From Simmondsia chinensis (Eukaryota; Streptophyta; Magnoliopsida; Caryophyllales; Simmondsiaceae): a DNA stretch of 64,000 nucleotides. The stretch covers positions 5,530,501-5,594,500 of the forward strand of contig JAGTTD010000006.1 of the NCBI GenBank assembly GCA_018398585.1. The letters run 5' to 3'. Positions 400 to 49,089 of the stretch are shown piece after piece. The number at the start of each line of letters is the position of its first letter. The stretch's first letter is position 1. The notes beneath the pieces are model-generated. The model did not search any database. It was not told the origin of the DNA and was given only the letters and a program-made list of their open reading frames with translations. Made by a program: the position numbers and the translations under genes.

Positions 400-3300
400 C
401 TGCACGAATTAAACATTTTCATACTGATGAGATTTAGCTTCCATTGAGTTTCCATTTGAAATAGAGAAATAAGGATGGTGTATAGTTGATTGAAAAACCA
501 ACTCATGGACTCAGAAAATGCAGCTAATAAAGGAGTAAAATGGAATCTGATACAAGTTGCTAAATGAAGGATCTTGAGCTAGCCATTATACAATTAGCGG
601 TTACATAATTGTATTTCTTTAATAGCTGTAAATGTGCTCCGGGTTCAATGGATATATATTTATAAATGTATTACATGTTAGATACTAAAAGGGTGGCTTT
701 GTTTATAGCTCTAGAAGAGTAGTGGCAGTAAAAATTAGTGTATGTATGACTATTTGTTTATATTGATAACACAAGATTTAAAAACAACTTATATTCCTTT
801 AAAGAACTCAATATTAAGTAATAGCATCGTTACATCCTGCTAAGGGTGTATTTCAGCCGAGTCGAGCTCAACTCGAGCTTGTCTGCTTTGCATTGAGTTC
901 AGCTCAAGGTCGGCTTGAAGCTCGTTGTCTCGAAAAATTCAAGTTCGAGCTCCGCAAACTCCGAACTAAGCTCGCAACATATATGCTCAAGTAAGCTCAA
1001 TCTAGGCTCTTTTAAGCTCATGCTTGGCTCATTTAGGCTCCAACTTGGCTCAGTTGGGCGTACATTGTTTAAGTTAATAGATTGTATTAAATGATTTGGA
1101 GAAGGTATGTGATAGAGTGCCACGGGGGGTCCTATGGAGGGTTTTGATTAGGAAAGGCATTCCAGTGCCTTATATCCAGGCCATTAAAGACATGTATGAT
1201 GGTGCACAAACTAATGTGCATATAGTGGAGGGAGAGACAGAAGCTTTTCCAGTAACAGTTGGGGTACATCAAGGATCTACCTTGAGTCCCTTTCTGTTTA
1301 TACTGGTTATAGATGAGCTCACTAGGCACATCCAAGGCAACGTGCCTTAGTGCATGCTTTTTGCAGATGACATAGTTTTGGTGGGGGAGTCTTGAGATGA
1401 GGTAAACGAGAAGCTGGAATTGTGGAGAAGGGCATTGGAGTCGAAGGGCCGACGAATCAGTAGATCCAGGGCCAAGTATATGGAACTTAAGTTTGATCCC
1501 TTCACCACGCCTAGCATAGTAGACATCAAGGTAGGATATGAGACCATACAGAGAAAAGGAAGTTTCAAATACTTGGGTTCCATGGTACAAAACAACAGCG
1601 AAGTAGACGAGGATGTCAACAACTGGATTAAAGTAGGATGGCATGGATGGAAAATGGCTTCCACGGCACTTTGCGACAAAAGGTTCCCATTAAAGCTAAA
1701 GGGAAAATATTATAAGACGGTAGTAAGATCGGCTATATCCTATGGGGCAGAGTGTTGGCCAATGAAACAACACCATTCATAGAAGATGAAGGTGGCAGAG
1801 ATGAGGATGCTTCGATGGATGTGCGGACACACAAGGAAGGACAGGATCAGGAACGACGTCATAAGAGCCAAATTGGGCGTTGCATCAATTGAGGATAAAA
1901 TAAGGGAGCAACGTTTGAGGTGATTCAGTCATGTTAGGAGGAGACCAACCACTACTCCAGTCAGAAGATGCAAACAGTTTCACACTACGCTAGGGAGGAG
2001 AAGGAGAGGCAGGCCAAAGAAGAAATGGATGGAGATGATCCGACAGAACCTCACCCACCTAAACCTACGGGAGGAGATGGCCTTAGATAAAACTAGGTGG
2101 AGGGTCAGCATAGGGATAGCCGATGTAGCGGCTTAGAGTAGAGCATCTTTGACTGCTTGCACCAGTGACTCTAGGTGTCTTGACTTCCTCTTTGGCAAAC
2201 ACGTCTTGGAGCATCTATTTGTGTATCGGTGTGTTGGAGTGCTGGAGTACTTGCCGAATATTTGTCTGCAATTACCTTCCTTCATGTTTCCCTTTGAGTT
2301 TTGCTTCATACGCTCGGCTTGTGTTATGTGTTGATCTAATACTAAGTTGCTTTCGCGCTTTCAAGCTCTAAGATTACATGATGACACGCTCTCCAGGATA
2401 GGGGTCCTCAGAAACAGCCTCCCTTCAATGTAGCACCCTAAAGGGAGAAGGCTGCATACATTTACCCCCCAGACCCTGCTTATGTAGAAGCCCTTGTGGC
2501 ATTGGGATTGTTGTTGTTGTTGTTGTAGATTGTATTAAATAGGTTCGCTTAAGCTTTTTTAATCTTGCGAGCTTACAAGTTCGAGCTTCACTAGAACCGA
2601 GCCTAGCTCGATAAGCTAAACGAGTTAGCTCAGCTCGCTCAAGCTTAAAATAAGCTTGACCTTTCAAGTTTTATGACGAGTCGGGTCACAAGCCCTCAAG
2701 CTCAATCATAGCCCTACATCTTGCTTCCGTAACATGTCAACTGCAACCGCAAACAGCAATTTGATTCCATGCTCCATCCTTTTCAGTTCGTAACCCAGTA
2801 CTCTTCTTTTGAAAGGTCTACAAATCCCAGCCAGCGTTCTAAAAAATTTCAGGCTTCAAACTTAAGTTGAGAGTGACCATTTTGATGCAACCAACAAGAT
2901 CGTGCCATAGTGACATGAAGGTCATAAAACAGTCTGTCCAGAGTTATAATGCATGTGAGTGAAAGCAATAATCAACGATGATAATGTGAGCTTGAAGTTT
3001 CATACTGCGATAAACAACTCATATTCAGGAAGCTCGTCCCAGCAACTGATGCAACATAAAGTTGACTTTTACTTCAAAAACACAGAGAGATATCAAATAA
3101 TTATTGGTTGTACAGGAAATTATCCTACTCCTTATGTTAATAAAGGCTGTTACCACCAGATTTTGAGCTAATTGTCACATTTTGCGAGCACAACACCGCA
3201 ACAACCAAGACCCATTTGTTTCGTCGGAACTGCAATATAGAAGCATGTATATGTCCTCTAAATTGATCAGAATTGTAATGAAATGGTCCACATTTTTGTA

Positions 3301-4045: not shown

Positions 4046-4078
<33 letters not shown>

Positions 4079-7000
4079 GCTAAAAGTCGAGGACTATTAG
4101 GCAGCATTTTTTAGACATATGATGCATGAACATTATTCGCCTCGTTCTGTGTGCTCAATGGTCAGATCATTCCTCAATTACTAGGAGTGCAAATGCTCCC
4201 AGAAACTCTTAAATAGCTCATGAGTAGCTTGGACAAAACTCAACTCGAACTCGAATTAGCCGAGTTCGAGTTTGAGTATCAAAACATAATTGATTAATAA
4301 ACGAGCACAAGTCGAGTAGTTCAATACTCGACTCGATACTCGATTATCTACTCGAATTAGTACTCGATTCGTTATGTGATTCGTTTGGTATATTTGAGTT
4401 ACACTTGATAATCACATGTACTCAAATATAGTTTGTATTAATTACATGATATTAGACAATGCCCTTAACTTTCTCATTTTGGTGAGTTCTTAAGGTCCGT
4501 CCCTATGGGCACACCTGGTTGCAAGTACTCTCATTAATTATCAAAAAAAAAAAAAAAAAGGGAATTGGGTATTAAAACATGGTCATTTATAATCTTTTCT
4601 TTTTGGTTAAACTGTAGTGTAAGCAATAATTGCATAACTGAGTTGAGTATAAATAGTAGTCAAGTATAAGGAATAATATTACAATGGAAAGAATATGTCG
4701 AACCTTGATATACGTAATAAATGAGTATTCGAGTCGAGTCGAATATTCGAATAGTTAATTGAGTATGAGTTCGAGCAAAATTTAATACTCAACTCGAGTT
4801 CGAGTACCTATATAGTAAATCGAGTTCGAGCCAGGTACTAAGATACTTAACTCGGCTCGACTCGATTACTCCCCTACTGACTACATCATCAAAAGGCAAA
4901 CAAACAGTAAAGCATTCTTCCACAAGCCTAGTTGTAGCTTATAGTCATCTTAGCTCCTCTATTCACATCAAATAATTCTAGACCAGCCCATGCATGGTTT
5001 CTAACCAAGCCTATGGAGGCCTCTCACTGATCTGAGTATTCATTGTTGTTAAATCAATGCGTCTCTTACTTTAAATTTCGCCATAACACTGGTGTATGAA
5101 TATTTCACCTTAGGCCCAATTGCACGTCAAGTTTCTAGTTTCCCTCCGTTTCAGCATAACAGGAAACACATGGCTCACCATCCAAAATATCTAGCAATAG
5201 CAGAGAACTGCAATCTGTATTACGCTGAAAATGCTTTGATTTCATACAATAAGAAACTGGTAAAGTTTATAAGCTCGATGTTCTTCCTTACGACAACAAC
5301 AATAACAACAATCCAGTGCCTTAAAGAGACTCCCGCCAAAGCAAGGTTGCGAGAGGGTAAGACGTACTCAACCTTACCTCTACAGGGAGCATGTTCCACC
5401 TTGGGCAACAAAAAAGAAGTGGTTACATCGGGGTTAGATATTTTGAGCAAGTTCTTACACTACACAACGTGTTATCTATTTTGCAGCGTCTACAGCATCC
5501 CACTTTCAAAGTACGCAGACTATAGCTGTGAACTGCTTCTTTCCAGATCACGTAACAGAACTAGTTTGTCTGAATAAACGATGATCTAAGAATGTGGATT
5601 GGGGAGTAGCCATTTCCAGATTTCTAACGGGATACTTCAGAAAGATATTATGCTGATGACGTACAGGGTCAATAATCAAGCGCATGACAAGACAAACCTT
5701 AATACAATAATTGTTGATCATGAACCAGAATAAACATTAAGCTACATATCTAAAACTACCTGAATTAAGAATACAGTTTTTGTACAATCCAGTCACGGGT
5801 CAGACTTGTAGGATCGAGAATACTAGGGTATGGGAGGTCGGGAATGTAAGAAAAGGGAATAAGAATGTAAATCGAACTATGAACAACAGTGACGCTAGCA
5901 AGAGGGAAATACTGGTCTTTTGACACATTGTGAAGGAATATTCCTCATAACAGAAGATTTTCAATCCCCCCCTTCCCATAGAATTCAGATATAAAGTAGT
6001 CCCTTACATAAGGGATGACATATATGATACTTCCTTTGTCCCAATTTCAATGTACGCTTTCAATTACCGTAATATTTGAAGAGTGACTAGACGTTTCCAT
6101 AATTTCGCTTGCATTCAAGTTGTATTGGCGGTGGAGATGAGATGGGGCAAGAATGGAGCGTTTATGAGAGTTCATAAAGGCAATTGACAAGGGGGGTGGT
6201 TCTTAGCCAAAACCCAAAATGCCGAGAAAGGTATAAAAGGGATGATTCTATTACAGGGAACAAGACAATTACTTTAGAAAGCCTCATTAAATATCAATAT
6301 AAATGGATTGATATTACTGGATCTTTTTCCATCTGTACCAGTCATTCATTGACAGGAATAATCATTGGAACAAGATGAGTTATGCCCTGATCCGTTAATC
6401 TTCCCTGTGGATAAAGGTGTACGCAATGGTGTTCTTCCCATCAAAAGATATTTTATGCATCTTTTGAGCCTGCGCTTTTGAAGGCAGGCATGTATTCTTG
6501 CATCCATGTCCGCAGATTAGCTTATTTTGATCAACACATAGGCTGTGAAGTAATGACAAACCATCACTACATAGCATTTAAAAATTACTAAGGCTGTGTT
6601 TGGAACATGGAATTGGAGGCTGGAATTGGGGCGGAGAATTCCAATTCTGTTGTTTGGTTCATCTGCTGCAATTGGAATTACAATTCTATTGCCCAATTCC
6701 ATGGAATTGGATTTTAACTGAAAATTACACTTTCCAATTCCTTAGGGTGGGGGCAAGGAATTGCAATTCCATATTAACTCCATTGACCTAAAATCTAAAA
6801 TAACCCTACTTGATTAATCCAAGTCCAAGATGATTCAAAATCCAAAGACTTAGACACAATCTAGAATTTTACCCGAAACCTCGAAATCACTTAACTCAAA
6901 TGACTTCAACTTGAAATGACAAAAATCACCTTAACTCAAAAGTCTGAAGTGACTCAACCCGATTAACCCAAAACTCGAGATGACTCAAATCCAGAAAATG

Positions 7001-10000: not shown

Positions 10001-12377
10001 TCGTTCTTTCTCCCAAAAATTATCCAAGTCACGGACTTAGGTTCGTGACAAAGTGGTATCAGAGCCATCTTTCGATCGGAGGCTCAAACTATCCTTTGCG
10101 TTTTCGTTCATCTCATTACCGTATCAAAAAAAAAATTTCCCCTGCGTTTCAACATCTTGAGATCGAGGGTCTCATTTTCGAAATTAAAAAAAAAAAAAAA
10201 AATCCGCTGTGTCCTGAAATTAAAAATAAATAAATAAATAAAATCAACCATCATATCCACTCTCCTTGTCAAGGTTTGGGATCTTCTCTATCCCATCACC
10301 AAAGATGTCCTCCACCAAGTCTTCTCTCCTTATGGTTGCCTTGAGGAAATCAAGATCAACTCAACATCTTCCTTGGTGGTTGAAGCTCAAGTGACCTGTG
10401 CCTCAAGGAAGGATGCCGAGATTGCACAAGTAAGGCTACACGGGAGATGCATCTACGACGAATGTTGTGTGATGAACAATCATGTCCACAACCCAACTCC
10501 TCAAGTCTCACTTGAAGATTGCCGCGACCATGGAGAAAAGAGTTCAATCGAGGAGCTGCGAGCTTCCATTAGAGATCTAACCGAAGCAGTAGCTCGGCTT
10601 TGTGATAGCCGTGGTGTGAAGTTTGAACTTCCACCGCAGCCTCAAAAGGGGTGTGATGAAGTCCCTGACATTGCCATAGATGTCAAGGATGAGGAGGAAC
10701 CGTTGGAACCACCCTCGGTGGAGATGGCCGTCCTTGAGGAACCACAAGAAGTCAGGGAAGGTGATGTCCTTGCTACACCGGACAAACCATTCCTTGAAGA
10801 TTTGTCTGATGATGAAGACAAACTGGTTGGGTCTCCCAATGTGGGGGAAACGCATGAATCAAGGCCGAAGAAAGCAATGGTAACAGTGGCACCTCAAGAA
10901 TCCCCAGGTGCTACAGTGACTCTTGAATCGCAGCAGCTACACCAAGTGCTGTCAACCCGGGCGGCGAAGAGGGAAGCAGCGCCGCAGCAGCCTGCTGGCA
11001 CGCGGAACCTAGGGCCGGACAGTGTCACACCTGAAGCCGAGAAGATGCTGGGTTGGGTACGATTTCCAAGAACCGGAATTGGCACAAGGAGATCAACCCA
11101 CATGACATCCTTGAGGACAAGGATGCTTTCAAGGAGAAGGGTTTGTCACAACCCTAGCCGTGACTGTCACGAGCCAAGAACTGATCAACCTGTTTTTGCT
11201 TTTATTATTTTGTATCAAATATGTAATGTAAAAATGAAAAATTAATTAGTAAAAATTTAGTTTGAATTTTGAATTTAGTAGGGGGGCCGGTTGGGTGACA
11301 AGGTAGTTAGGCTAGGATTACTTGTTTGTAAGCATGGGTTAGGCATTAATTAATTTTGTGGGCTATTGTAGGGGGTCTAGGGGTAGGTGTGTTGGGTGTG
11401 TGTTCCCCTTCCAAACTCTATACAATCATGTATGGGTCTTGTAATTTGGCATCAAGAAATCAAAAACAACAAATTCAAATTTTCCCTCTTCTCTTTCCCT
11501 CTCTACCGTCACTCTCCCCTCTCCCTCCTCTAACTTCTAAAACTTCTCTTCTTTTCTCTAACTTCTTCTCTAAATTCTCTTCTCAATCTCTTATTTCTTC
11601 ATCTAATCTCTAATCTCTCTTCTTAATCTCTATTCTCTTTCTCTCTCTCGTTCTTTCTCCCAAAAATTGTCCAAGCCTCGGACTTAGGTTCGTGACAGAC
11701 ACCTACCCGATTGATCCGATTGGCTTTGGGGCTTGCGTTTCCGGTTTTTGTTATTTTGGATGATTTCTTTTATTTTTAATTCTTTTTGTTATTTTTCCCT
11801 TGTAAACTCTATAAAAGTCATTTGTAATGAGGAATTTACAGGATGAATAAAACTGTTCTCTAACGTTCAATTAAACTCTCCATTTCTCCCTCCAATTCCC
11901 TTCTTCTACTTTCTCCCTCATTCCCTAATACTGATTCTCTCCTAATTCTTCCTCAAATTTCTTCGTTTTTTCATGAATGACGTATGAGTTTTGGTTTAAT
12001 TACTACATTGGGTCATAACAGTCAAGTTCATCAAGAACCAAGATGAAGAGACGGAGGATAGAGAAGATACATACAGAAGGATACTGCACAGGAGCTGCTG
12101 GTTGAACACCCCAACTCTGCGAAACTCCATTTGGGTCATGATAATAAGCCGATTGGACCCCCGCGCCGCCATAGACGGAGGGATAAGAGCTCGAAACATA
12201 CGGATCGATCTCAGGGGGATGCAATTGAGGAACATGAGATGAGGAGAGAGAATATACAGGAGAACGAAAATTAGCGTTAGGGTTAGGGTTAGGGTTACGG
12301 TTACGGATTGAGGAGGAGATAGTTTCAAGAGAGTAGTAAGATACGCTGGTGTACGAGGCTTGTTGCCCGTGGTACAT
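1..12377 (-). CDS. U1-type (zf-met) C2H2 zinc-finger protein gene, 3' part cut by the window edge
   Basis: Three exons on the minus strand join in phase 0: 12377-12075, 8255-7743 and 399 to the window edge. The 405 visible codons hold fingers of the C-x2-C ... H-x5-H type at about residues 157-179, 247-269 and 309-331; a fourth begins (MCTICNVVC) where the window ends. The two linkers contain K/R-rich stretches that could act as nuclear signals. The N-terminal 100 residues are rich in S, P, Y and Q and have no finger. Fingers of the U1/matrin/JAZ group are known to bind RNA, often double-stranded RNA, or DNA, so a nuclear nucleic-acid-binding role is inferred; no exact orthologue is claimed. 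Borders: exon 1 donor GTATGT, exon 2 acceptor TTGCAG and donor GTTACT, exon 3 acceptor GTGCAG. Both introns are packed with transposons. The start ATG at 12377 is the first in the frame. Confidence 0.85.
841..2716. mobile_element. hAT-type MITE, CGAG-rich, interrupted by an RTE LINE
   Basis: The ends are TAAGGGTGTATTTCAG on the left and, read inward from the right, TAGGGCTATGATTGAG. They are flanked by an 8-bp duplication, CATCCTGC at 833-840 and CATCTTGC at 2717-2724 (7 of 8 identical), as expected for hAT transposition. The body is a degenerate AGCTCGAG/CAAGCTC repeat with no coding capacity. Removing the LINE and one copy of its target duplication leaves about 428 bp. It needs a transposase in trans. 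Confidence 0.75.
1093..2525 (+). mobile_element. 5'-truncated RTE-clade LINE with (TTG)n tail
   Basis: This non-LTR retrotransposon fragment carries RT from domain 4 onwards: a VCDRVPRGVLW block, then GVHQGSTLSPFLF, then CMLFADDIVLVGE with both catalytic aspartates, and the C-terminal MLRWMCGHTRKDRIRND block near 1805-1855. Two in-frame stops are visible (TAG before CMLFADD, TGA after LVGES) and a third near 1921, so it is dead. The 3' end has the conserved segment GAAACAGCC...CAGACCCTGC and a (TTG)5 tail at 2508-2525, which is typical of plant RTE LINEs. A perfect 15-bp target duplication, TAGATTGTATTAAAT, lies at 1078-1092 and 2526-2540. Confidence 0.88.
3615..3698. repeat. Perfect 42-bp tandem duplication
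   Basis: Two adjacent identical copies of a 42-bp AT-rich unit that starts ATGAAATCATTAATG lie at 3615-3656 and 3657-3698. No other function is apparent, and the duplication is probably recent. Confidence 0.9.
4046..4077 (+). repeat. Poly-G tract, 32 nt
   Basis: An uninterrupted run of G follows an A-rich stretch. It can form G-quadruplexes on the plus strand. The predicted poly-proline ORF on the other strand is an artefact of this run. Confidence 0.85.
4182..4876. mobile_element. hAT-like nonautonomous element (CGAGTT family), copy 1
   Basis: The left end is TAGGAGTGCAAATG and the right end, read inward, is TAGGGGAGTAATCGAG. The interior is rich in ACTCGAACTCGAATT and GAGTTCGAGT motifs. 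A homologous copy lies at 55051-55538. The flanking octamers TCAATTAC and CTGACTAC agree at only four positions, all differences being transitions, so an old duplication is possible but unproven. At 4440-4559 the copy contains extra sequence ending AATTATC plus a 17-nt A run, which looks like a nested L1 3' end. Confidence 0.6.
5290..5450 (-). mobile_element. RTE-type 3' tail (LINE or SINE fragment)
   Basis: Read on the minus strand, the sequence has the GAGGTAAGGTTGAGTACGTC segment, GGCGGGAGTC, GGCACTGGATTG and a TTG-rich end. This matches the order of blocks in the RTE LINE tails at 2395-2525 and 19024-19152. The upstream part is not clearly 5S-derived, so LINE and SINE origins cannot be separated. 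Confidence 0.55.
6592..7636. mobile_element. PIF/Harbinger-type MITE, about 1.05 kb
   Basis: The terminal inverted repeats are long: the left one begins GGCTGTGTTTGGAACATGGA and the right one, inverted, begins GGCTCTGTTTGGAACATGGA. Both continue with GGAATT motifs. The element is flanked by TAA at 6589-6591 and 7637-7639, the TWA duplication expected of PIF/Harbinger. The interior (about 6830-7500) is an array of degenerate GACTCGAA/GACCCGA motifs with no transposase. Confidence 0.85.
7743..8255 (-). CDS. Exon 2 of the U1-type zinc-finger gene (two fingers)
   Basis: The exon has 171 codons between the acceptor TTGCAG and the donor CAG/GTTACT. It carries two complete fingers, CELCNVEC...HLSGRKH and CTICNIVC...HLSGKKH. 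The matching HLSG(R/K)KH ends are characteristic of the U1/zf-met group. The linker includes ETKKRKLAEEGTAPDAVRVC, which is closely echoed by ETKKRKIMEAGVAADAVRMC in exon 3. The two-finger module was therefore probably duplicated. Confidence 0.87.
8972..9235. mobile_element. Possible MITE with imperfect inverted ends
   Basis: The left end GCCTTGTTTAGCAATTAGAC resembles the inverted right end GCCTGTTTGGCAA. A second internal block (CCTTGCTTGACAATTAGATA, about 9086) repeats the left end. No convincing target-site duplication was found. Confidence 0.35.
9496..10050 (+). repeat. 5' LTR of the RRM-carrying retrotransposon
   Basis: The LTR begins TGTCACGACCC and ends GGTTCGTGACA. A TATA-like CTCTATATAATC lies at about 9768-9780, and a CT-rich stretch at 9838-10015 would form the transcribed leader. 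The short protein predicted here recurs in the other LTR and is not a gene. Confidence 0.9.
10054..10068 (+). other. Primer-binding site (initiator Met tRNA)
   Basis: TGGTATCAGAGCCAT lies three bases after the 5' LTR and is the standard plant site complementary to the 3' end of initiator tRNA-Met. Confidence 0.92.
10238..11245 (+). pseudogene. Captured PTB-like RRM fragment inside an LTR retrotransposon
   Basis: The frame is open from just after a TAA at 10235 to the stop at 11243. The first 80 or so codons read LLVKVWDLLYPITKDVLHQVF and then SPYGCLEEI, a near-family match to an RRM of plant polypyrimidine tract-binding (PTB/hnRNP I) proteins. The hallmark GRCIYDECC follows (PTB: GRNIYDGCC). 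The rest is acidic and P/E-rich, with IEELRASIRDLTEAVARL, which could be a coiled coil or a gag relic, and has no recognised domain. No upstream ATG fits, so any product would need another start. The last part runs into the 3' LTR. A retroelement-borne host gene fragment is inferred; alternatively the RRM belongs to a long-lived element family. Confidence 0.75.
11131..11143 (+). other. Polypurine tract
   Basis: AAGGAGAAGGGTT lies directly before the TG of the 3' LTR, where the plus-strand primer is expected. Confidence 0.7.
11144..11697 (+). repeat. 3' LTR of the RRM-carrying retrotransposon
   Basis: The LTR begins TGTCACAACCC and ends GGTTCGTGACA. It is colinear with 9496-10050. The TATA-like motif of the left LTR (CTATATAATC) reads CTATACAATC here. 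Confidence 0.9.
12075..12377 (-). CDS. Exon 1 of the U1-type zinc-finger gene
   Basis: The exon encodes 101 residues starting MYHGQQASYTS and ending PVQYPS, followed by the donor GTATGT. It is low-complexity (S, P, Y, N) and includes an NPNPNPN run encoded by telomere-like hexamers. The reading frame continues into exon 2 without breaking a codon. Confidence 0.8.
12277..12306 (+). repeat. Telomere-like hexamer run inside exon 1
   Basis: Three TTAGGG units are followed by two TTACGG units. On the coding (minus) strand they encode the N-P-N-P-N-P and R-N stretch of exon 1. The plant telomere unit is the heptamer TTTAGGG, so this is a coding microsatellite, not a telomere. Confidence 0.85.
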
Positions 12378-15399: not shown

Positions 15400-16700
15400 T
15401 AAGACATCCCCAACCTTCCAATGAATACCTTTATCCTCGACAGCCCCCCTTTCCACTAAAAACGAGCTATAACACTATTAAGCTTTCTAGAGAAAGTGAC
15501 CGACAACCTATAACAAGACATAACAAAAGTGGGGATTGCCGACATGATATACTTGAGGAGCACCTCCCTACGGGCATGGATAGAAGTTTGGATTTTCACC
15601 CTTGCATTTTCCCCCAAATTTTATCATAAAGGAAAGAGAAGGCGTTCTTTTTTGACCTACTCCAAAGAATTTGAGATTCGAGGTACCTATCCTCCCCATT
15701 AAACAAACCAACCCCCATAATTCGAGACATTCCTCCCTCACCCATGTCGGAGTACTGGAGCAGAAAAAATGCATAAGATTTTTGGAAATTGACTTATTGA
15801 CCCAAAGCATCACAGAAATTGTTGAGGATGTTTTTGACATTGTTACATACACGGCTTGACGCTTGGAAGAACAAGAGACAATCATCGGTAAAGAAAAGGT
15901 GAGATAATGAAGGGCAGGAAGTTTTGATAAAGAAACTGTTCCATTCCCCTTTACTTTTTGCCTCATTGATAAGAGTGCAAGGTGAGTCCAGGACAAAAAG
16001 AAAGAGGAATGGAGAAAGAGAGTCACCTTGTCCAAGATATCTAGAAATCCCAAAACAATCAAGTCTTTCCCCTGTAACAACTGGGCTGACCCAGACTGTA
16101 GAGCCACATTCCATAATCCATCCAACAAAGGTATCATTAAAACCCATTTTTTCCAAAACTTTTTCAAGAAAACTCCATTCAACTTGGTCATAAGTTTTGG
16201 CTAGGTCAATTTTGAGGGCAATAAAATGTTTACCACCCTTTCTTTTGTTCTTAAGAGCATGGAAAGCTTCGTGAGCCACCAAAATGTTGTCTTGGATTTG
16301 TCTATCCTTAACAAAGGCGGATTGATAAGGGGAGATGAGGAAATCCATAAAGGGTTTTAAATGGTTAGTAAGGATTTTTGAAATAATTTTGTATGAGAAA
16401 TAACAAAGGCCTATTGGCCGAAAATGGTTTATCGAAGTTGGGTTTTTAATTTTGGAATCAAAATGATGTTTGTGTTCTTTATGTTTGAGGATAATCTTCC
16501 ATTTTCAAAAAAACTTTCCATCGTCTGACAAACGTCATGGGAAATGATGTCCCAAAAGGCGGTATCGAAGATAACTGGGAAACCATTCGGGTCCAGAGCC
16601 TTAAGGCCGCCTAGTTGCTTCACTGCATTCCAGATTTCAGTTCGGCAGACAGTTTTAGTGAGCTCCCGGTTCATGAATTCACTGACTTTGCACAAAATGC
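15400..16700 (-). pseudogene. L1 reverse transcriptase domain, broken
   Basis: Blocks visible in order are KALDPNGFPVIFDTAFWDII (16600-16540), ISPYQSAFVKDRQIQDNILV with ALKIDLAKTYDQVEW (16348-16190, first catalytic D present), GDSLSPFLFLFVLD (16020-15980) and HLFFTDDCLLFFQ (about 15900-15860). The active-site alanine of FADD is threonine here, while both aspartates are kept. A frameshift lies between 16695 and 16348, and a second frame continues to 15568. Confidence 0.8.
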
Positions 16701-18014: not shown

Positions 18015-19152
18015 TCTTGTGCCTTGGTGCATGCTTTTTGTAGATGACATAATTCTGGTTGGGGAGTTCTGAGAAGAGGTCAATAAGCAGCTGAAACTTT
18101 GGAGAAGGGCCTTGGAATCGAAAAGCTTACGACTCAGTAGATCCAAGACAGAGTATATGAAACTCAAGTTCAATACTTCCACCAGGCTTACCATAGAAGA
18201 CAGTAGGATTGGATTGGAAACCATACTTAAAAAGGAGTGTTTTAGATATATGGATTCCATGGTACAATAGGACAGTGAAGTTGACGAGGATGTCAACAAC
18301 CGTATTAAAGTAGGCTGGCATAAATAGAGGTTGGCCTCTGGGGTACTTTGTGATAGAAAGTTCATGTTAAAGTTAAAGGGAAAATAATATAAGATTGTAT
18401 TGAGACCATGTCATATGGCGCGGAGTGTTAGCCAATGAAACGGTATTATACACAGAAGCTGAAGGTAGCAGAGACGAAGATGTTGCGGTGGATGCGTGGA
18501 CATACAAGGAAGGATATAATCAGGAATGAAATCATAAGAGGCAAATTGGGCTTGGCCCCAATTGAAGATAAATTGAGAGAGCAACGTTTGCGCTGGTTTA
18601 GACATGTTAGGAGCAGATTGATTATCGCCCCGGTCAGGATATGTGAACAACTCTAAGCTACACTTGGGAGGAAAGGGAGAGGCAGGCCGAAGAACAGATG
18701 GATGGAGACGATCCGACACGATCTCACCCACCTAAACCTATAGGAGGAGATGTCCTTAGATAGAGATTAGTTGAGGGCTAACATAAGGGTAGCCGATTAG
18801 CGGCGTAGAATAGAGGAGCGTATTTTGGCTAGCACTAGTGCCCCTAGGCTTATACGTCTACCTGTTTGATTTACTTGACATGTTTGGGAGTTATTTTATT
18901 GCTTATTGTCTATTGCTGCTAATTGCTTCTTGCTTAGTCTTGCTCTGGGCCATTGTTTTTAATACTTTTATACTCTTATGCTTTATACTTTATGTTTGTA
19001 AGCTGTTATGCTTTTGTGCTTCTCAGGTTGGTGGTCCTCGGAAACAGCCTTCCTTTTGGGGTAGCACTCTAAAGGGGTAAGACTGCGTTCATCTCTTTAT
19101 CCCCAGACCCTGCATATGCGGGAGCTCTCAGGGCACTAGTTTGGTTGTTGTA
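18015..19152 (+). mobile_element. Second RTE-clade LINE, 5'-truncated and decayed
   Basis: The sequence is homologous to 1355-2525. CMLFVDDIILVGEF is at about 18030-18070 (A of FADD changed to V), followed by WRRALESKSLRLSRSKTEYM, with MLRWMRGHTRKDIIRNEII at 18480-18536 and LREQRLRWFRHVRSR after it. Several stops are present. The 3' segment GGAAACAGCC...CCCCAGACCCTGC lies at 19035-19115 and the tail is TTGGTTGTTG. No target duplication was found; the left border against the L1 at 17945-18015 is uncertain. Confidence 0.8.
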
Positions 19153-19304: not shown

Positions 19305-20066
19305 CAATCTACTGTTGAACCGCGTTTAGAAAACGCGGTTCACTCCAAAAATAACCGAATTAGTTTATTCCAGTTATAAAACGCGTCTTTAAGACGCGTT
19401 TCATGTGAAAATAAACCGCGTTCGCGGTTTATTTGAAGATAAATCGCGTCTTTAAGACGCGGTTCATTTACAAATAAACCGCGTCTTTAAGACGCGGTTC
19501 ATACACAACTAAACCGCGTCTTAAAGACGCGGTTCATATTATTGTAAAAGACAAGTCTTGAAGTCAAGGACGCCCACGCTCGAAACGAATTCAAAATGAA
19601 ATGGATAAAATGACTATACAGGAAGGGTCACATGTAGATTTTGTAAGAGAAAATGCCATAATGTATTCACATGCAAGATGAAAAAGGAGCACAGGGCTCG
19701 GTTAGCAGCTAGCAGCAGTGAAATATATGACGGTAATATTTATTTATGTTTTATTTTTTTGAACATTTATTTATGTTTTATTTATATTATTTTTTATATA
19801 GTAGTTCGTTATTTATATATATCTATTAGTTTGTTATTTATGTTTTTTAACTCATAAAGCAGTATAACCGCGTTTACTAAACGCGGTTATTGTGATGGTA
19901 AACCGCGTTTACGAAACGCGGTTTATGATATAAACCGCATTTTGTAAACGCGGTTTATACTTATATAATTTTTTGTTCTTGATGCGGTTATTTTTACATA
20001 TAACCGCTTTTTGTGAACGCGGTTTAATATAACCGCGTTTATAAAACGCGGTTCAACAGTAGATTG
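19305..20066. mobile_element. Element with two clusters of short GC-rich palindromes and inverted ends
   Basis: The ends are inverted copies of CAATCTACTGTTGAACCGCG (left 19305, right to 20066). Within them, six palindromes of 22-24 nt of the form AACCGCGTCTTTAAGACGCG plus GTT lie at about 19318, 19378, 19411, 19441, 19476 and 19511. Five more of the form AACCGCGTTTA...AAACGCGGTT lie at 19866, 19900, 19932, 20002 and 20031. The roughly 330-bp centre has no recognised gene. Subterminal repeat clusters recall CACTA-like or foldback nonautonomous elements, but no 3-bp or other target duplication was found, so the class is unassigned. Confidence 0.6.
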
Positions 20067-21747
20067 GTAAATATTTATTTTTTAGCATTATTTTTTTTAT
20101 TTTTTTATTTTTCAGCATTATTTTGGGAACCGACTCCTATATATATCAGTTTTGTACATGGCAAATTTGAAGCTCTCAGTGTCACTGTTATAAACATTTA
20201 GTACTACAGAAGTAATTATCCCAGTAACTTAAGAATCAAGCAAAGATTTAAGAATGATTTAGCATTCTGATTTATGCTTCTCGTGAAAAATACTCACTGG
20301 GTTTGAAGTATGAATATTATAAAGTCTTATTTTATAGCTTCTGCTAAAATTGTATTGTTTTTAAGAGCAAGGATTGTTGTATCACACTCAAGACATCTAA
20401 ATCTAAGAAGATTGAATACCATATTAAAGAACCATCTCATCGTATTAAGCTATCAGGAGAACTCAAAAATGATTCATTCTATCGACAAGTATGCCCTTTG
20501 TCTAGGTTCTTTATTTTCACACTGGTTTTTGTGCACGAGCTATAGATTCACACAACGGCTTGAACAATCATTATAACTTTAGTCATCTTCTTGTATTCTT
20601 CTCCAAAAACAGAAAAACCTCTATACATCTTCAATAAGAACAATTGACTGAAACATATAAATCCTTATTGTTAAAATAAGAATGCGAAATTGGGATAAAT
20701 ATCTAAACACAACAATCAAATAAACGATACTGAAAGTGGAAGAATCGATTAAAATACCAAAGGTACCATGCTGTGGCAAAAACCACTTAGACGATTTTGC
20801 CGCGGCTCCAGTGCAAACAGTAGTGCTAGCGTCTGTCCTCCAGGATTGACACGATCCGACTCTTAATGTGCACTCATTATTACGGGGTAGGAGAGCCGAA
20901 GAACTTAGCCCAGAGAAAGATAAGGACGAAAATGGAGAGAGAGAGAGAAGACTCAGTAAGTTGTTGTTTTTGTTGATGGATATTAGTCTCCGTTGTAGAG
21001 CACGCTATTTATACAGTTGCAAGGGATTGGTAAACGGTAACAAGCAAGGAAATTTAACGGTTGTAATGAATTACAACAGCTAAAATTTTAATTAGCTATG
21101 AATCTCCAACAGTCATAATATAAACGGCTAGTAACGGCAATTGGGTAGTAAATAGGCACGGTTAAAATATTTAAAATAAATATATCCGTTGAGAAAAAGA
21201 TCACCCACCCCCAAGCACAGCATGGCAAGCGGCGCGTGCATGTGGTCCCACCATTCTCTCACCCCTAACTTTTTGATTAGCTCACACCCCTAATTTAATT
21301 CAAAGATTTGAGTGACATGCATACATTTAAGCTCAACAAAACTTCTCTCGTTTTTTTATGTGGGATGCAAGACTTATAATTTACACTTTGTTTGTATCTT
21401 TTTCTAACACTTATATCACGTTAGTTCTTCCCTAATTTATCGTTATCGAAACATAAACGCCCCGTTTACGCAGAGACAAAAGTAGAGATCTTTGTAGTGA
21501 AGTTGGTGACTAGTAGTAGTAGAATAAAGAAAAACTAAAGGCACTAGAAGCATGCTCAGCTCAAGTTTAAGAAAGCAAAAGGAGAGTTGAGTGAGATAGG
21601 TTGTCATGTAATATATGGTAGGTCATTAAACAACCACCTCATACTCACATGTTACCTTAGTCTACACACATTTAATTTTTTTAATTTTTAATTTATTATT
21701 ATTTTTATAAATAATAAAAAAAATTATTTTTATTATTACTTTTTTTA
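20067..21747. other. Intergenic region, no gene recognised
   Basis: Mostly AT-rich sequence. At 21005-21015 the minus strand reads CTGTATAAATAGCG, a good TATA-like box, followed on that strand by a CT-rich leader-like stretch (20990-20890) and GC-richer sequence to 20770. This could be a solo LTR or an isolated promoter on the minus strand, but no LTR ends or coding region could be matched. Confidence 0.35.
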
Positions 21748-21997
21748 GGGTTCATTTACCCGGCATTAAGGCACCGGATCCTATTAGAACTCTGAAGTTA
21801 AGCGTGCTTGGGCGAGAGTAGTACCAAGATGGGTGACCTCTTGGGAAGTTCTCGTGTTGCCAACCCTATAAGGTTGGGGGTTCTTGGAAACAGCCTCTTG
21901 GCAGTGTTACACCTTGAAGGGGTAAGGCTGCGTACATCCACCCCTCTTAGACTCCGCTTATGCGGGAGCCCTTGAGGCACTGGGTTTGTTATTGTTG
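21748..21997 (+). mobile_element. 5S rRNA-derived SINE with RTE-type tail, copy A
   Basis: The first 119 nt (21748-21866) align over their full length with plant 5S rRNA. The A-box region AAGTTAAGCGTGCTTGG, the intermediate element GGCGAGAGTAGTACCAAG and the C-box GATGGGTGACCTCTTGGGAA are all present. The rest (21870-21997) matches the 3' end of the RTE LINEs in this window: GGAAACAGCCTC, GGGGTAAGGCTGCGTACATC, GGGAGCCCTTGAGGCACTGG and a TTGTTATTGTTG tail. Flanking TTATTACTTTTTTT and TTATTACTATTTTTTT may be the target duplication. It would be transcribed by pol III from its internal type 1 promoter and mobilised by the LINE. Confidence 0.88.
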
Positions 21998-22854
21998 TAA
22001 TTTATTACTATTTTTTTCTTCTTATGAGATTTTCACGTTAACATAACCATCCATTTTTCAACGTCTCACTCCATTTCTCTTCCATGCCAAGTAAGAATAA
22101 TTGCTCCAAAGTCCATCTACTGTACTCATGAACCCCATCAAACCCTATTTGTAAGTTTAAATCAACCCGAACACAGCTCGATATTATTTATTCTTCATTT
22201 CTAATTTTCAGTTTCTTACTAATTTGAGTGAAAACTGAAAATAAAAGACAAAATATTAGAAAAAGTCGCTTCAAAAATCTGACTTTTAGTTTCTGGAAGA
22301 ATCAAAAATTGCAAATAGAAAACGATACTCAATGGGCTTAAAGAGTCGTGTGATATAACAACTGGGTTTGAATCAAACTCAACACGATCGAGTTAGCATC
22401 TTTAAGTAAATTAAACTAGCCAAATACTTGTATATATTATCATGTTCAGAAGCAAACATGATATTGTTATGCACTTTACAGTTGTCACCTTATGAAAATT
22501 CAATTTATCACATAACAATTTGTAGATGAAACACATGAATCAGCTTTTGAACTCTTTTCCTTTTCTTCTATAGCCATAAAGTACAAAGAAAAATGTAATA
22601 GTTCAATATACAAAAATAGAGAATAAAGTAAAAAAAAAAAAAAAAAAAAAAGTTGCCTTCCTCTTGCAAGATGAGCTGCTAGTATGTGACTTTGAGAAAG
22701 AAAACTCAGTAAAATTCAGTTGGTTATGAATGAGAATTCGTAAAGAATCAATGTAATGTAACGCGTATCCATGAATCTGTACACTCTTTGAAATCAGGCC
22801 TCGAATTCATCGTCATAACGCTTAGTTCAATCTAATTTTTTGAAATTCACTTGA
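21998..22854. other. Intergenic region and 3' flank of the ZAT-like gene
   Basis: AT-rich sequence with a 21-nt A run at about 22631-22651. The part next to 22855 is presumably the 3' UTR of the minus-strand gene. No other feature was recognised. Confidence 0.45.
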
Positions 22855-24327
22855 TCAGTTTGAGATTAGACCCATAAGTGGTTTGGGCTTGTGGGTGTCC
22901 TGAACCCACCATGGCTTGAACCCACCATGAATACTAGCACCGGCTTCTTCGTCAGCTGGTGCAGGGAGGTTCAGATCAAGGAAATTGCGGGTTTGCGGTG
23001 TTGGGTTATGAGTCCCAAGGCCCTGATTAATCTGACTATTAGAGTTGTCAGTAGCGACACCGGAAGCGAGTAAATGAGATCTCTTGTGGCCACCAAGTGC
23101 TTGGCCTGATGGAAAAACTTTGAAGCAAATTGGGCACTCATGATTTTGAGCTTTCTTCAAGTTATTTCCATTTTCAACCTTCTTTGCTTGTTCTTGATCA
23201 TGTAAACTCTTGTTAACCAAAGGAGACACTTCAGTTTGGCTGCTGTTTTCACTCACCTCGTGATTCGAACCCGAGCACCCTTTCAGCTTCTTATGGCTAG
23301 CTCTGTGACCTCCTAGAGCTTGGTATGAAACAAACGCTTTGTTACAGGTTGTACACTCAAATCTGCTCTTTTTTTCATCTTTCTTCCACAACTCAGAATC
23401 TAAAATATCGAAAGAAGCAATCTTTTTGATTGAATTCGCTTTGGTTTCTGGACTAAAAGAATCATCAATCTTCCTTTTACTTGAATCACCATTGGCCAAT
23501 TGAATCCCACACTTGTTCTCTAGCTCGTTTCTGACAAACCCATTAGCTGAAACTTCAACGTTGCTCACTTTACACTCATTCTTCTGATACCCATAACCAG
23601 AAAACTCTAATTTCTTTACTTCCTTTTCAAATTCTTTACTTCTTGTACCTAACTTTTTCTGCTCCTTCACATGATCACCACTATTAACACAACATTTCTT
23701 CTTGTTCTTGTTCTTGTTCGTGTTTGTCTTCGTGTCATCATTGATTTTCATGTTCCCGTTTGCTCGAAATGACGATTTTTCTTCCAAAAAGACAGAATTA
23801 TTGTCAGAAGATTCAGCAAATGAGCTCCCCCAGTGACCCACATCCATAGATAACATAATCAAAGACAAAGCAACATCTTTTTGTTCTGTTTCTTCAACAT
23901 CAGAAACAGATGAATATGCATTTTTATGATCATTATTAGCACCATTGATCCCTATGTACCTTGCTCTTCTACTTGATCTCCTAGCCCACTTCAGATCCTC
24001 CTCACCGTCGGATTGGATCTCCATCGATCCCACCCTTTGATTCTGACCATTCGAATTCCACGACGAAACCGGTGAATCATTACGGCCATCTGCTGCTCTC
24101 CATGTCTTTCTGGATCTCCCTCTCAGCTCGTACTCGAGCCCCCGTTTGGGTTTCGACCCCTTCTTTGATCCTGACCGTTCGTTTTTCCGACGATAATGAT
24201 GATCAGATTGGTTGTTATTGTTGATCAAATGAGACCTCATATGACCACCTAAGGATCTACCACAAGGGAAACTTTTGCTGCAGAACTTACACATATGCTT
24301 CAACTCCATCTTTGCTTCTTCCTCCAT
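22855..24327 (-). CDS. ZAT-like C1-2i C2H2 zinc-finger repressor, 490 aa, intronless
   Basis: The intact single-exon frame has three plant-type fingers: [21 protein letters not shown] at residues 13-33, [17 protein letters not shown] at about 325-345, and [21 protein letters not shown] at about 398-418. An EAR motif, LDLNLPAP, is at about 450-457. The QALGGH core is specific to plants and contacts DNA; EAR motifs recruit TOPLESS-type co-repressors. A basic stretch after finger 1 (KKGSKPKRG) is a likely nuclear signal, and ALSLIMLS near residue 155 may be the L-box-like segment of this family. This combination resembles ZAT1/ZAT4/ZAT9-type proteins, but it is longer than those (about 270-315 aa), mainly through the K/S/N-rich spacer between fingers 1 and 2. 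Finger 1 has RSLGGH instead of QALGGH. The start is the first ATG of the frame. Confidence 0.93.
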
Positions 24328-34355: not shown

Positions 34356-35451
34356 AACTAAAAGCGCATTATGGGAATGGTCGCCCAACTTTGCTCATGG
34401 TTTGTTACTAAAGTTGCTACTTGGTAATGGAACTAAGGAGCATGAGTAGTTAGATCTGGACATAAGAACAATAGTGAAGGTCAATTTGCAAGGATCTTCC
34501 ATGCAATAGTGAATGAAGATGCAAGTGTTGCCAACAAGAGCTTTGAACCAAAAGATGACATTAATTTTACATTGTCGATGATGCGAGTCCAATCAAGATC
34601 TTAATTTTAGAAAATCAGGGTGTTTCTTGACTTCCAAAATGGTGCTTGCGACAGCGAAGATAGACATGAGTCCGATCAAGATCTGAAGAGGGGAGCATTA
34701 ATGATGGATTTATTTATACAAGTTTGATTTTGTTTTTGTGAGTCGCAAATTTGTTAAAAGAAGAGTTAGTGTACAAAAATGAGCCACATGACTGTCAGTC
34801 AAGTATAATTTAGTGGGTTGGTTACATGGATTCTTTCTCGTGAATTATCATATCTTTTTGTCAATTTGCAAGCAAACGTGAATTATCATAAATTGTAGAA
34901 AATCCCCTATTTTTATATTGAAACAAAAGGTAAAAATCTTTCTCACAAAAAAAAAAAATTTTTTTTTATTCTTTTGCTTTTCAAAAATTTAATACTTTTC
35001 TTAATCTGTTAAGTTGATCCTTATATTAGTAATTTATAAGACTATTTTAGCCCTCAACAGTGAGGGAATAAAGTGCTTGATTTTATTTTTAAAAGAAATT
35101 TTTTTTGGATTTTCAGACAAAAGATAGAGAATTTTCTGTTTTTATGCAGATGATAGGAGGATTTCTGTAATTTACATAAAACAAATCCTTTTAATTAAGT
35201 GCAATAATTTATTATAAATTTAGAAAATATTTAAATTACAAACATAATAGTTTTCTGATAAAAAAAACTTAAATTTTTTATGAAGTAAAACATAATAGTT
35301 TTTTGATAAAAACAAATTTCAAATTAGGTTAATAAATGTGAAATAAAAATAAATGAAATTACAAAAAAAAATTATGGAAAGATAAATTATTTGGAAAAAC
35401 TTTGAAAAAGACCAAAAATGAAAAAACCATTTAAGTATTGGGTTATTTTTG
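34356..35451. other. Intergenic AT-rich DNA
   Basis: No gene or element was recognised. Repeated TAATAGTTTTCTGATAAAAA at 35245 and 35290 suggests a small local duplication. Confidence 0.4.
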
Positions 35452-35717
35452 TGAGTTACTTAAACCATTTAAGTCAAGACCAAAGAGGGTACCAAAACGC
35501 CGTCTCTAGATCCCATTAGAACTCCGAAGTTAAGCGTGCTTGGGCGACAGCAGTACCAAGATGGGTGACCTCCTAGGAAGTCCTCACACTCAGGCTGAAG
35601 ATACTCTGAAACAACTTCTCTTCAGGGGTAATACCCTGAAGGTGAAAGGCTGCGTACATCTGCCCCCCAGACCTTGCTTAGGCGAGAGCCCTTGGAGCAC
35701 TGGATATGTCGCTTTTT
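35452..35717 (+). mobile_element. 5S rRNA-derived SINE with RTE-type tail, copy B
   Basis: The element is flanked by a perfect 16-bp duplication, TATTGGGTTATTTTTG at 35436-35451 and 35718-35733. The 5S-like part (about 35487-35593) keeps AACTCCGAAGTTAAGCGTGC, GGGCGACAGCAGTACCAAG and GATGGGTGACCTCCTAGGAA. The tail has AGGCTGCGTACATCTG, CAGACCTTGC and GAGCCCTTGGAGCACTGG, as in the RTE LINEs. Thirty-five bases precede the 5S-like head, and part of them (AAGACCAAAGAGGG) recurs in copy D. Confidence 0.87.
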
Positions 35718-36389
35718 TATTGGGTTATTTTTGAAAGGGATTTTCTAGTTTTTAAGGCAAAAAATATGTGATTGTCTACAATTTACGGTTCATATACAAG
35801 CACTTATAAATTGAACAAAAGATACAAATTTTAACTAAAATGAATTAATGATTTGATCATTCACGAAAGTTAAAAAACAGGGCCTTAGATGAAAAGTGGA
35901 TCAATTCCACCATAATAAAATTTAGGATTATTTATACCAAAGGTCCCTATTTTGTCGATTGTGTTGATTTAGTCCCAACACTTTTATTTTTTGTCAATTT
36001 AGTCGCTGTAAAATTGATATTGTGTTAATTTGGTCCATAGAGTAAAATTTCTATTAAGCTATTAATGAAATTCTTAATAGTTCGGCCATGGGTTTGGTTA
36101 AATTGAGGTCAACATGCTGATTTGTATTGGATTACTTGCATCTGAAATAATATAACTTGAATTTGACCAAATGACTAAATTGACACAATATAGATTGTAG
36201 AAGGACTCAATTGACATAATTAAAAATATAAGGACTAAACTAACACAATGAATCTTAAAAAAAAAAATTAACACAATAAAAAAAGTATATAAAAATTTTG
36301 GGTAAATAATCCTAAAATTTACCTACATATGATTTAAAGATGACGAATTAAGATGTCGCCTATACAGCCATTTTCTGTCTTTTAAAACT

Positions 36390-36420
<31 letters not shown>
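36390..36420 (+). repeat. Poly-G tract, 31 nt
   Basis: A second long uninterrupted G run in this window, in an AT-rich setting with no adjacent gene. Confidence 0.85.
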
Positions 36421-37740: not shown

Positions 37741-38182
37741 CAATATCAAAAACTCATATCTAAATTCAATCGTTTCCGGCCTTGTTAAGTCTAACTCACT
37801 AATGGCTATCTGTTACTCATGTGATACTAGCTTAGGAGTTTTTCTGGTATTGGAAGTTGGAATACGGGAATGATCAATGTCGTAAATAAACTGTTCATCT
37901 CCTCTAGCGATGTCTATTTTTGATGGCCCGTATGTTAGGACCAAAAAATCGCATTCGGAAAAAACTGACACGTGGCCCCCCGTAAACCACAACGAGGGGA
38001 TGACACGTGGCCTCCGGGCACCATGCTAACGGGGTGACGCGTGGCCCCCGGACACCGCAGCATCTCGCCCTGGAATGCCCTCCTTCGGGAGCCGACCGAG
38101 CAATAACGGCTACACGGCATCACGACTCGGGCGGACGACGACTAGATGCTCGAAACCTGAAGAGTCTTGCCGAACGCCTCTT

Positions 38183-38570
38183 CGAAGGTCCCGGACACAG
38201 CTCTTGCTGGAAGACACCTTGTCCGAGGAACACCTCTTCTGAAGGTCCCGAACATAGCTCTTGCCGGAAGACACCTTTTCCGAGGAACACCTCTTCCGAA
38301 GGTCCCAGACACAACTCTTGCCTGAAGACACCTTTTCCGAGGGGCACCTCTTCCGAAAGTCCCAGATGCAGCTTTTGCCGGAAGACACCTTTTTCGAGGA
38401 ACACCTCTTCTGAAGGTCCCGGACACAGCTCTTGCCAGAAGACACCTTTTCCGAGGAACACCTCTTCCAAAGGTCCCGGACACAACTCTTGCCGGAGGAC
38501 ACCTTTTTCGAGGAGCACCTTTTCTGTAGGTCTCGAACGCAGCTCTTGCTGAACAAACTTTCTGAAGGAT
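38183..38570 (+). repeat. 57-bp minisatellite in the 5' LTR, about six units plus a partial
   Basis: Each unit begins GAAGGTCCCGGACACAGCTC and ends near GAGGAACACCTCTTC. Because 57 is a multiple of three, long ORFs arise in several frames on both strands; these are not genes. Confidence 0.9.
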
Positions 38571-38806
38571 GCATCCCTTGTCTAAACACGCATTCTAAGG
38601 CCCCGGACACGGATATTGTCGGCCACGCCTTCTGAAGCTTCAGATGCTGCTTCCGTCAGACGCATAGACACACCCTCTGAGGCCCCAAACACGACTCTTG
38701 TCGGCCATGCCTTCCGAAGCCTCGGACGTGGCTTTCGTCAGACGCACACCTGAAGACCTATCGGACACATCTCCAGAAACCCGCTCTCCGAAGCCCAACC
38801 ACCCTA

Positions 38807-47140: not shown

Positions 47141-48138
47141 TGCTAGGACCAAAAAATCGCATCCGAAAAAAACCGACACATGGCCCCCATAAACCGCAAC
47201 GAAGGGATGACACGTGGCGTTCGAGCTCCATGCTAACGGGGTGACGCGTGGCCCCGGACACCACAACATCTCGCCCTGGAATGTCCTCCTTCGAGAGCCG
47301 GCCATGCAATAATGGCTACATGGCATCACGACTTGGGTGGGTGACGACTCGATGCTCAAAACCGGAAGAGTCTTGTCGAACACCTCTTCCGAAGGTCCTG
47401 GACACAGCTCTTGCTGGAAGACACCTTTTCCGAGGAACACCTCCTCCGAAGGTCTCGGACACAGCTCTTGCCGGAAGACACCTTTTCGAGGAACACCTCC
47501 TTCGAAGGTCCCGGAAACAGCTCTTGCCGGAAGACACCTTTTCCTAGGAACACCTCTTCCAAAGGTCCCGGACACGGCTCTTGCTGGAAGACACCTTTTT
47601 TGATGAGCACCTTTTCTGATGGTCCCGGAGGCAGCTCTTGCCGAACACCTTTTCCTAAGGACGTAGCCCTAGTCTAAACATGCCTTCCGAGGCCCCGGAC
47701 ACTGATCTTGTCGGCCATGCCTTCCGAAGCTTCGGACGCGATTTCTGTCAGACGCACAGACACGCCCTCTGAGGCCCTGGAACTGGTTCTTGTCGGCCAC
47801 ACCTTTCGAAGCCTCGAACGCGGCTTCCGTCAGACACAACCCTTTGGACACATCTCCAAAGCCCAACCACCCTATAAATAGGGCCCTAGCCCCCATACTT
47901 GAGACACAACTACCTTCATACCCGCTCCCACTCTTGGGCGTCCTCTTGACCCTTCCTCCGAGACTCGGCGGAAGGACCCCTGGAGCAGCGGAACCCCCCT
48001 CGTTTTTCTTTTATTTTCTTGTAGCCCATCAAAAATACTTGTAATAAAACCGTTTATAATTAATAAAAATTTAAATGAAGATAAATTGTCTGTATTATCG
48101 CCTTCCATAAAAGAACCCCTATTACTGTTACCAAAACA
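47141..48138 (+). repeat. 3' LTR of the Tat-like element (998 bp)
   Basis: The LTR runs from TGCTAGGACC to ACCAAAACA and is colinear with 37933-39054. It has only about four full minisatellite units (47390-47640), one of them 56 bp. It shows many substitutions against the 5' LTR, so the insertion is older than the RRM-carrying element. Confidence 0.9.
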
Positions 48139-48580
48139 CCGTGTTTCTTGCATTTTGGATTATTTTTATTTTACTTTACTTTGTTCACCTTTTAAACTAC
48201 ATGCTTTACGCTTTAGCTTGTGCCTCTCTTTCAGAAGTGCGCTTGATTTGTATTGCGTATTGTCTCGCTAATTATCTAAAAATAAACTCATATTATACTG
48301 ATGATGATAATAATAATATTATAATTATAAAAACAAAAATAAATGCACTTTTTCCATTATATTAAAATAAAAATATAATAAAAATAGATGCAAGAAGTGG
48401 GGAACTAGTTAAGAAAGTGCAAGGTGATAATAAGCTAAAAAGAATTTAAGGAGTGGTTCCCATGTTATGTCACGTCCCCTACATCACTAATTAATTTAGT
48501 CCTGCTTCACAAAGTTGTCACCTTTTCTTGTTGCATTTATTTTATTTCTAACTATTTGAGTTTCTCTGTATCATTATAAG

Positions 48581-48797: not shown

Positions 48798-49089
48798 TAT
48801 CATTATAAGCATATACTTTGTTAAATACCTTAATATATATTAATATATCTTTTTTTTTCACTTCTAATTATGCTAATTTAGCCTTTATGCTATTTCAAAT
48901 GGCATAGTGTTGTTCGAATGTTGTATCCGTTTTTTTGTTTTATTAAAATTTTGCTTAAATTGTACTATTTGGACAATATTAGTTCATTTTTTATAGAAGT
49001 AGATTGGCTGTCACAAATGTGAATCTAATTATGGCATAAATAGGATGCAATAACGAGATTAAGTACACCCTTTATATAAAATTTTAATA

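Follow-up and report, generated by a model that had tools for sequence, protein, structure and literature searches.

The four units in the window (the whole 64,000-nucleotide stretch of Simmondsia chinensis DNA analyzed here) that carry a 5S rRNA head very probably belong to a plant SINE family of high copy number whose head is 5S-derived (SINE3 type), a judgment that takes this identity together with the mechanism and origin proposed below. The SINE3 features found are a 5S head with box A, IE, and box C, a LINE-derived tail, target-site duplications, and a uniform chimeric structure over many dispersed copies.

Four 5S-headed units and the tail shared with RTE-type LINEs

A sequence-only reading of the window had proposed four units that each join a 5S rRNA copy to the 3′ end of an RTE LINE. 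Rfam and BLAST confirmed a 5S rRNA head joined to an RTE-type LINE 3′ end in all four. BLAST of the subfamily A consensus against the window returned these units, the tails of two RTE-type LINE copies, and two tail-only pieces, each of the latter being either a diverged RTE 3′ end or a SINE remnant. The features are as follows.

1081-1350, forward strand: reverse transcriptase fragment of an RTE-type LINE copy (Pfam RVT_1, E 3.5e-08)
2395-2522, forward strand: 3′ end of the LINE copy with the 1081-1350 fragment, ending in (TTG)n (80% over 130 columns)
5297-5387, reverse strand: tail-only piece (76% over 93 columns to the A consensus, BLAST)
19025-19151, forward strand: 3′ end of a second RTE-type LINE copy (76% over 127 columns)
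21733-21740, forward strand: 5′ target-site duplication of unit 1, exact core of 8 nt
21748-21998, forward strand: SINE unit 1, subfamily A (Rfam 5S 73.5 bits at 21744-21865)
22002-22009, forward strand: 3′ target-site duplication of unit 1, exact core of 8 nt
35438-35451, forward strand: 5′ target-site duplication of unit 2, 14 nt exact
35479-35709, forward strand: SINE unit 2, subfamily C (Rfam 5S 47.2 bits at 35479-35596)
35720-35733, forward strand: 3′ target-site duplication of unit 2, 14 nt exact
48569-48580, forward strand: 5′ target-site duplication of unit 3, 12 nt exact
48581-48797, forward strand: SINE unit 3, subfamily B (Rfam 5S 35.7 bits at 48584-48678)
48798-48809, forward strand: 3′ target-site duplication of unit 3, 12 nt exact
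49116-49201, reverse strand: tail-only piece (70% over 86 columns to the A consensus, BLAST)
51895-52121, reverse strand: SINE unit 4, subfamily C (Rfam 5S 49.9 bits at 52002-52128, reverse strand)

Unit 1, with 93% identity to the A consensus over 251 nt (BLAST), runs from a 5S head at about 21748-21859 through a short palindrome-bearing linker and the RTE-derived tail to TTG-like repeats, and its duplication can be extended to 14 nt with one mismatch. Unit 2 is 86% identical to the C consensus. It had been thought to start at 35452, and its SINE part starts instead at about 35479: 27 nt of unrelated sequence (35452-35478) separate the 5′ duplication from the 5S head, as if transcription had begun upstream or bases had been added at insertion. 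Unit 3 is diverged, being 82% identical to the B consensus over positions 11-241 and lacking roughly 10 nt at its start, and its Rfam 5S score falls below the gathering score of 38 bits, whereas the other three units score above it. Unit 4 is 90% identical to the C consensus and has a weak duplication of 8 nt (51880-51887 and 52138-52145). TTG-like repeats end unit 1 only; the 3′ ends are TGTCGCTTTTTT in unit 2, TGTTGCTA in unit 3, and TGTTCCTTTCC in unit 4.

Several other features of the window were recorded. A C2H2 zinc-finger gene (22855-24327, reverse strand; Pfam zf-C2H2_6 in three stretches) lies within 1 kb of SINE unit 1. At 38172-38746 and 47378-47835, two GC-rich blocks built of 57-nt and 82-nt tandem repeats stand about 9.1 kb apart in direct orientation. 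They are 84% identical over 300 nt, enclose sequence with a strong A-over-T skew, and are probably the terminal repeats of an LTR retrotransposon. The tandem, palindromic CGCGGTT...AACCGCG repeats at 19395-20053, which the MIR7486 precursor model matches on both strands below its gathering score, probably represent a MITE or an array of repeats and not a miRNA gene. There are pure G runs of 32 bases at 4046-4077 and 31 bases at 36390-36420, and a short TTAGGG array of 5.5 copies at 12271-12303; TTAGGG is the vertebrate-type telomere unit, and plants usually have TTTAGGG.

The two LINE 3′ ends in the window are homologous to the family consensus from position 124 on. The homology of the unit tails to RTE 3′ ends stands as first read, and the tail is about 130 nt long including the repeats, not the roughly 110 nt initially given. 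Relatives of the 1081-1350 reverse transcriptase fragment numbered 7,372 first-look candidates in the genome, of which 150 were scored, with open frames of up to 657 amino acids. Among 22 RTE-type loci, comprising the eight best matches (window copy included) and 14 picked for long open frames, 21 carry the SINE tail at their 3′ end with 75-88% identity over 83-159 columns; the remaining locus, L094, had no match. The encoded protein is a non-LTR reverse transcriptase in which Pfam recognizes only RVT_1 and whose closest solved structures are R2 and L1. We call the LINE RTE-type on the basis of its (TTG)n end and the precedent of the tobacco TS SINE and the potato RTE (PMC3747384). Subfamily A copies end in (TTG)n like the LINEs, and B and C copies end in T-rich variants. 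Two-sided changes in 2 of 22 pairs are a weak sign that the predicted tail structure is conserved. The hairpin stretch before GCACTGGG presumably resembles the 37-bp Angio-domain of flowering-plant SINEs.

A tRNA-derived head of the TS/Au type was considered and rejected: the head is 5S by Rfam, and a search with the B-box consensus showed no tRNA-type B box before the tail in the window or in 142 loci, 16 of which are viral or prokaryote. ARAGORN likewise found no tRNA when run on approximately 220 nt of sequence preceding each of 51 tail-only pieces, a set that includes LINE ends.

Genome-wide junctions, copy number, and divergence

The genome searched was the assembly of the window's own plant (831 Mb, 35 contigs). 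A pattern consisting of the 5S C-box core, 25-55 free bases, and the tail core had 2,647 matches, and the exact 17-nt junction of subfamily A had 1,533, with no match to the reversed control in either case; units of this structure are far beyond chance. Elsewhere, the 17-nt junction had six matches in viral contigs and 10 in prokaryote records, uninspected and taken as chance, and a 21-mer of the tail had no match in the viral contigs.

Among the 100 pattern matches listed, all from contig C1, 94 share three exact junction lengths: 53 nt (72 matches), 61 nt (11), and 64 nt (11), which correspond to subfamilies C, B, and A, respectively. The other six lie at 54-65 nt. The median spacing of these 100 is 216 kb, with 3,976 bp between the closest pair, so that the sequence-only reading was right both in treating the 5S/tail junction as a fixed one and in placing the 5S parts outside tandem 5S arrays. 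Closer neighbors occur elsewhere, with about 115 bp between two oppositely oriented copies on contig C2 and 552 bp between 5S cores on C1. A search for real 5S genes gave 51,838 first-look candidates, of which 47 were scored, 46 on contig C8 and one on C29; the C8 genes lie mostly in tandem arrays with units of about 420-440 bp.

This genome is rich in 5S genes and in RTE-type copies, and the units might in principle be 5S pseudogenes or array fragments that chance to adjoin RTE remnants. We give this almost no credence: the exact shared junctions run to thousands against none reversed, the listed matches are widely spaced, and the duplications described below enclose head and tail together. 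Fixed junctions and duplications around the whole unit refute chance adjacency.

Other searches speak to the uniformity and number of the copies. Unit 1 used as query gave 7,042 first-look candidates, 40 of which were scored, and the 42 matches listed comprise unit 1 itself, one 48-nt piece, and 40 near-full-length copies at 89-93%. All 20 loci sampled by the junction match the consensus well past the junction on both sides, and 18 of them reach the 3′ end. The exact 5S C-box core had 8,703 genome matches (control 0), a count that includes real 5S genes. Dividing it by 4/11, the share of copies with an exact core, gives approximately 24,000; this share was read by eye in 11 copies not chosen by similarity, one more such copy (the second in L086) having been left out. 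The copy number is roughly ten thousand, as an order of magnitude only, since the window is no random sample.

Divergence from consensus A has a median of 10.8% in the junction-picked copies (19 of 20; one fragment was left out) and 5.2% in A copies from the unit 1 search, its flanks, and the window (n = 45). Measured against B and C consensuses that were hand-written from small alignments, the medians are 5.4% for B copies from the B search (n = 12) and 2.9% for C copies picked for perfect junctions (n = 4), and copies met in flanks or in the window differ by 7.7% (B, n = 4) and 12.4% (C, n = 4). The least diverged copy differs by 1.6%, which suggests that activity is probably not only ancient.

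5S promoter, insertion signature, and proposed origin

The head consensuses were compared with the host 5S gene L031, with box A, IE, and box C at the positions that we take them to occupy on 5S. The consensuses of A, B, and C are identical to the host gene at 15/15 positions of box A, 6/6 of IE, and 10-11/11 of box C, as well as at 19/19 of host-5S positions 31-49, while over the first 30 positions identity falls to 25/30 in A, 18/30 in B, and 14/30 in C. Subfamily B keeps 14 of the last 15 positions of 5S; A and C are diverged at the 5S end. The first base of the element corresponds to 5S position 1, give or take about one base, and TTTT is absent from the interior of all three consensuses. 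Helix I of 5S rRNA has 9/9 pairs in the host gene and only 3/9 in B, which makes a ribosomal role for B RNA unlikely. At a site where all three SINE consensuses carry GGTGACCTCCTGGG, the host 5S genes read (L031 and L051, in the C8 arrays) carry GGTGACCTCTTGGG; owing to this difference, the SINE may preserve an older 5S version or stem from another 5S locus.

From this anatomy we infer transcription by pol III from the internal 5S promoter. Pol III would start at the first base of the element, directed by box A, IE, and box C, and would transcribe the whole element to a T-run in or beyond the tail, a read-through consistent with the lack of an internal T4. The head could instead be a passenger, its promoter function unused, in short RTE derivatives transcribed by pol II, and 7 of the 20 junction-sampled loci do start only at consensus positions 20-61. 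We consider a passenger head highly improbable. The other 13 of the 20, and 77 of 88 copies in a larger set mostly chosen for full-length similarity, start at consensus positions 1-4, where 5S transcription begins. All three subfamilies keep the promoter boxes almost unchanged while the first 30 nt have diverged, the boxes are also kept in A and C beside a diverged 5S end, and the consensuses have no internal T4.

Target-site duplications with a score of at least 8 were found in 24 of the first 30 loci, compared with 8 of 171 shuffled pairs, in which the upstream and downstream flanks of different loci were combined; at a score of at least 10 the numbers were 22 and 4, and one shuffled pair reached 22, a score sufficient for any real copy. 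In the larger set of 88 copies, limited to those starting at or before consensus position 70 and ending at or after 190 (unit 1, which is L001, was counted twice, and the overlapping L077 and L088 were left out), 63 have duplications at score 9, with lengths of 10-24 nt and a median of 16. They comprise 48 of 64 A copies, 13 of 16 B copies, and 2 of 8 C copies; the other 25 copies have no duplication at this threshold.

An insertion-signature study describes, in the portion of its text available, a thymine stretch approximately 10 bases upstream of the duplications of plant RTE LINEs and SINEs, and RTE duplications that start with T, typically followed by A (PMC13295347). In the present family, TTT occurs at -13 to -7 upstream of the duplication in 36/63 copies, against 7/63 at -26 to -20 and 8/63 at -7 to -1, and comparison of upstream T content with the two control stretches gave Wilcoxon p values of 1.4e-6 and 3.0e-6. 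The first base of the duplication is T in 59% and the second is A in 30% and T in 46% (n = 63), with T at the first base in 74% of the first 23; the exact duplication ends are blurred by the T-rich tails. The upstream T-run of plant RTE elements is confirmed, and TA at the cut is not clear.

These anatomical features point to mobilization by the RTE reverse transcriptase, which would recognize the shared 3′ region and terminal repeat and insert the RNA by target-primed reverse transcription. The window also holds a reverse transcriptase fragment (15797-16504, RVT_1) that we take to be L1-like, and an L1-type LINE could be proposed as the source of the enzyme. This is very improbable, because the aligned copies have no poly(A) tail, the tail is that of RTE-type LINEs, and the upstream T-run fits RTE. 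As an observation on insertion sites, one A copy (L021/L077, contig C15 at approximately 19.655 Mb) immediately follows an RTE-type 3′ end with its TTG tail, indicating that tails can serve as insertion sites.

The B consensus consists of the 5S head from first to last base, one T, and then the RTE tail. The match of B to host 5S runs to the very last base ahead of the tail, which suggests a template switch onto mature 5S rRNA. In the origin that we propose, the RTE reverse transcriptase, after copying the 3′ end of its own LINE, jumped to the 3′ end of a mature 5S rRNA; subfamily B would have retained the seamless junction, C would have lost 8 nt of it, and A would have gained the palindromic linker. 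Birth of the chimera in DNA, by insertion of an RTE just behind a 5S gene, would yield the same parts from a 5S gene joined to an RTE 3′ end, and nested insertions do occur, as the placement of L021 illustrates. We rate a DNA origin as unlikely, although it deserves more weight than any other alternative considered here: the B join is the last 5S base plus a single T, which either parent could supply, and such a seamless join is what a jump onto an RNA 3′ end predicts, whereas a DNA insertion would need luck to produce it.

Relation to known SINEs and to Cassandra

The SINE3 elements zebrafish SINE3/AmnSINE1 and insect HaSE3 likewise combine a 5S head containing a pol III promoter with a LINE-derived tail. 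The known SINE3 families are animal, the vertebrate ones having CR1 tails, whereas the family described here has a plant host and the tail of that plant's own RTE-type LINEs. In the available text of a 2020 paper, SINE3 is placed in vertebrates and some insects, and HaSE3 of a moth is seemingly mobilized by RTE (PMC7245038). Ped-1 of the springhare, according to the accessible part of PMC3747384, also joins a 5S head to the tail of an RTE-clade LINE (BovB). It is a rodent family, likened here by architecture and not by tail sequence, and we assume an independent birth. Outside animals, 5S-related SINEs occur in the fungus Aspergillus fumigatus, likened by description only from the available portion of PMC5063351.

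Among plant elements, the closest tail is that of the tobacco TS SINE, which has approximately 100 nt of its 3′ end in common with an RTE-clade LINE and ends in TTG repeats; the same accessible text gives (TTG)n or (TTGATG)n as the ends of plant RTE LINEs, in line with the sequence-only reading (PMC3747384). The TS, Au-like, and Angio-domain SINEs have tRNA-derived heads, in contrast to the 5S head found here. The rule that plant SINEs are tRNA-derived likewise agrees with the part of PMC9033089 available.

Cassandra is, like the present family, a dispersed plant retroelement with a 5S internal promoter, and it differs in being an LTR element with the 5S inside paired LTRs. As the known dispersed 5S-bearing element of plants (PMC10853983, available portion), it is a natural candidate identity for the units, either as complete elements or as solo LTRs. 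There is scarcely any likelihood of this. The units end in an RTE-type 3′ end followed by T-rich or TTG repeats, the start of the head coincides with 5S position 1 to within about 1 nt, and an unsystematic look at the aligned copies revealed no surrounding LTR pair. Where Cassandra membership implies 5S in paired LTRs and short duplications, the units are single head-plus-tail elements with duplications of 10-24 nt.

In the literature searched, Repbase and subscription journals aside, the available portions of papers place 5S-headed SINEs in animals and a fungus only, and no plant 5S-headed SINE was found there. A 2010 paper mentions 5S-homologous sequences among SINE3 including plants, and its plant reference is the Cassandra paper (PMC3095306, accessible text). 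The 2024 Cassandra paper, in the part available, names animal SINEs when treating new promoters of non-autonomous elements (PMC10853983). Judged against these portions of the literature, what sets the family apart is the host kingdom and the union of a 5S head with a plant RTE tail otherwise reported with tRNA heads. On balance, we lean toward regarding the family as an unreported, independently born SINE3 lineage of flowering plants that arose by an RTE template jump onto mature 5S rRNA, with the seamless junction kept in one subfamily, at least three subfamilies, and thousands of copies.

There is a practical consequence for annotation, in that a 5S model search of this genome returns the 51,838 first-look candidates noted above, and search tools that rely on tRNA boxes are likely to overlook the family. 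With thousands of copies in a plant, it would carry SINE3 into another kingdom and would illustrate clearly how template switching can give birth to such elements. It has been speculated, in the available text of PMC10886601, that Cassandra descends from a SINE3 that landed in an LTR. If the present reading is true, plants can produce elements of the type proposed as the source of Cassandra's 5S, and the family would make a SINE origin of that 5S testable.
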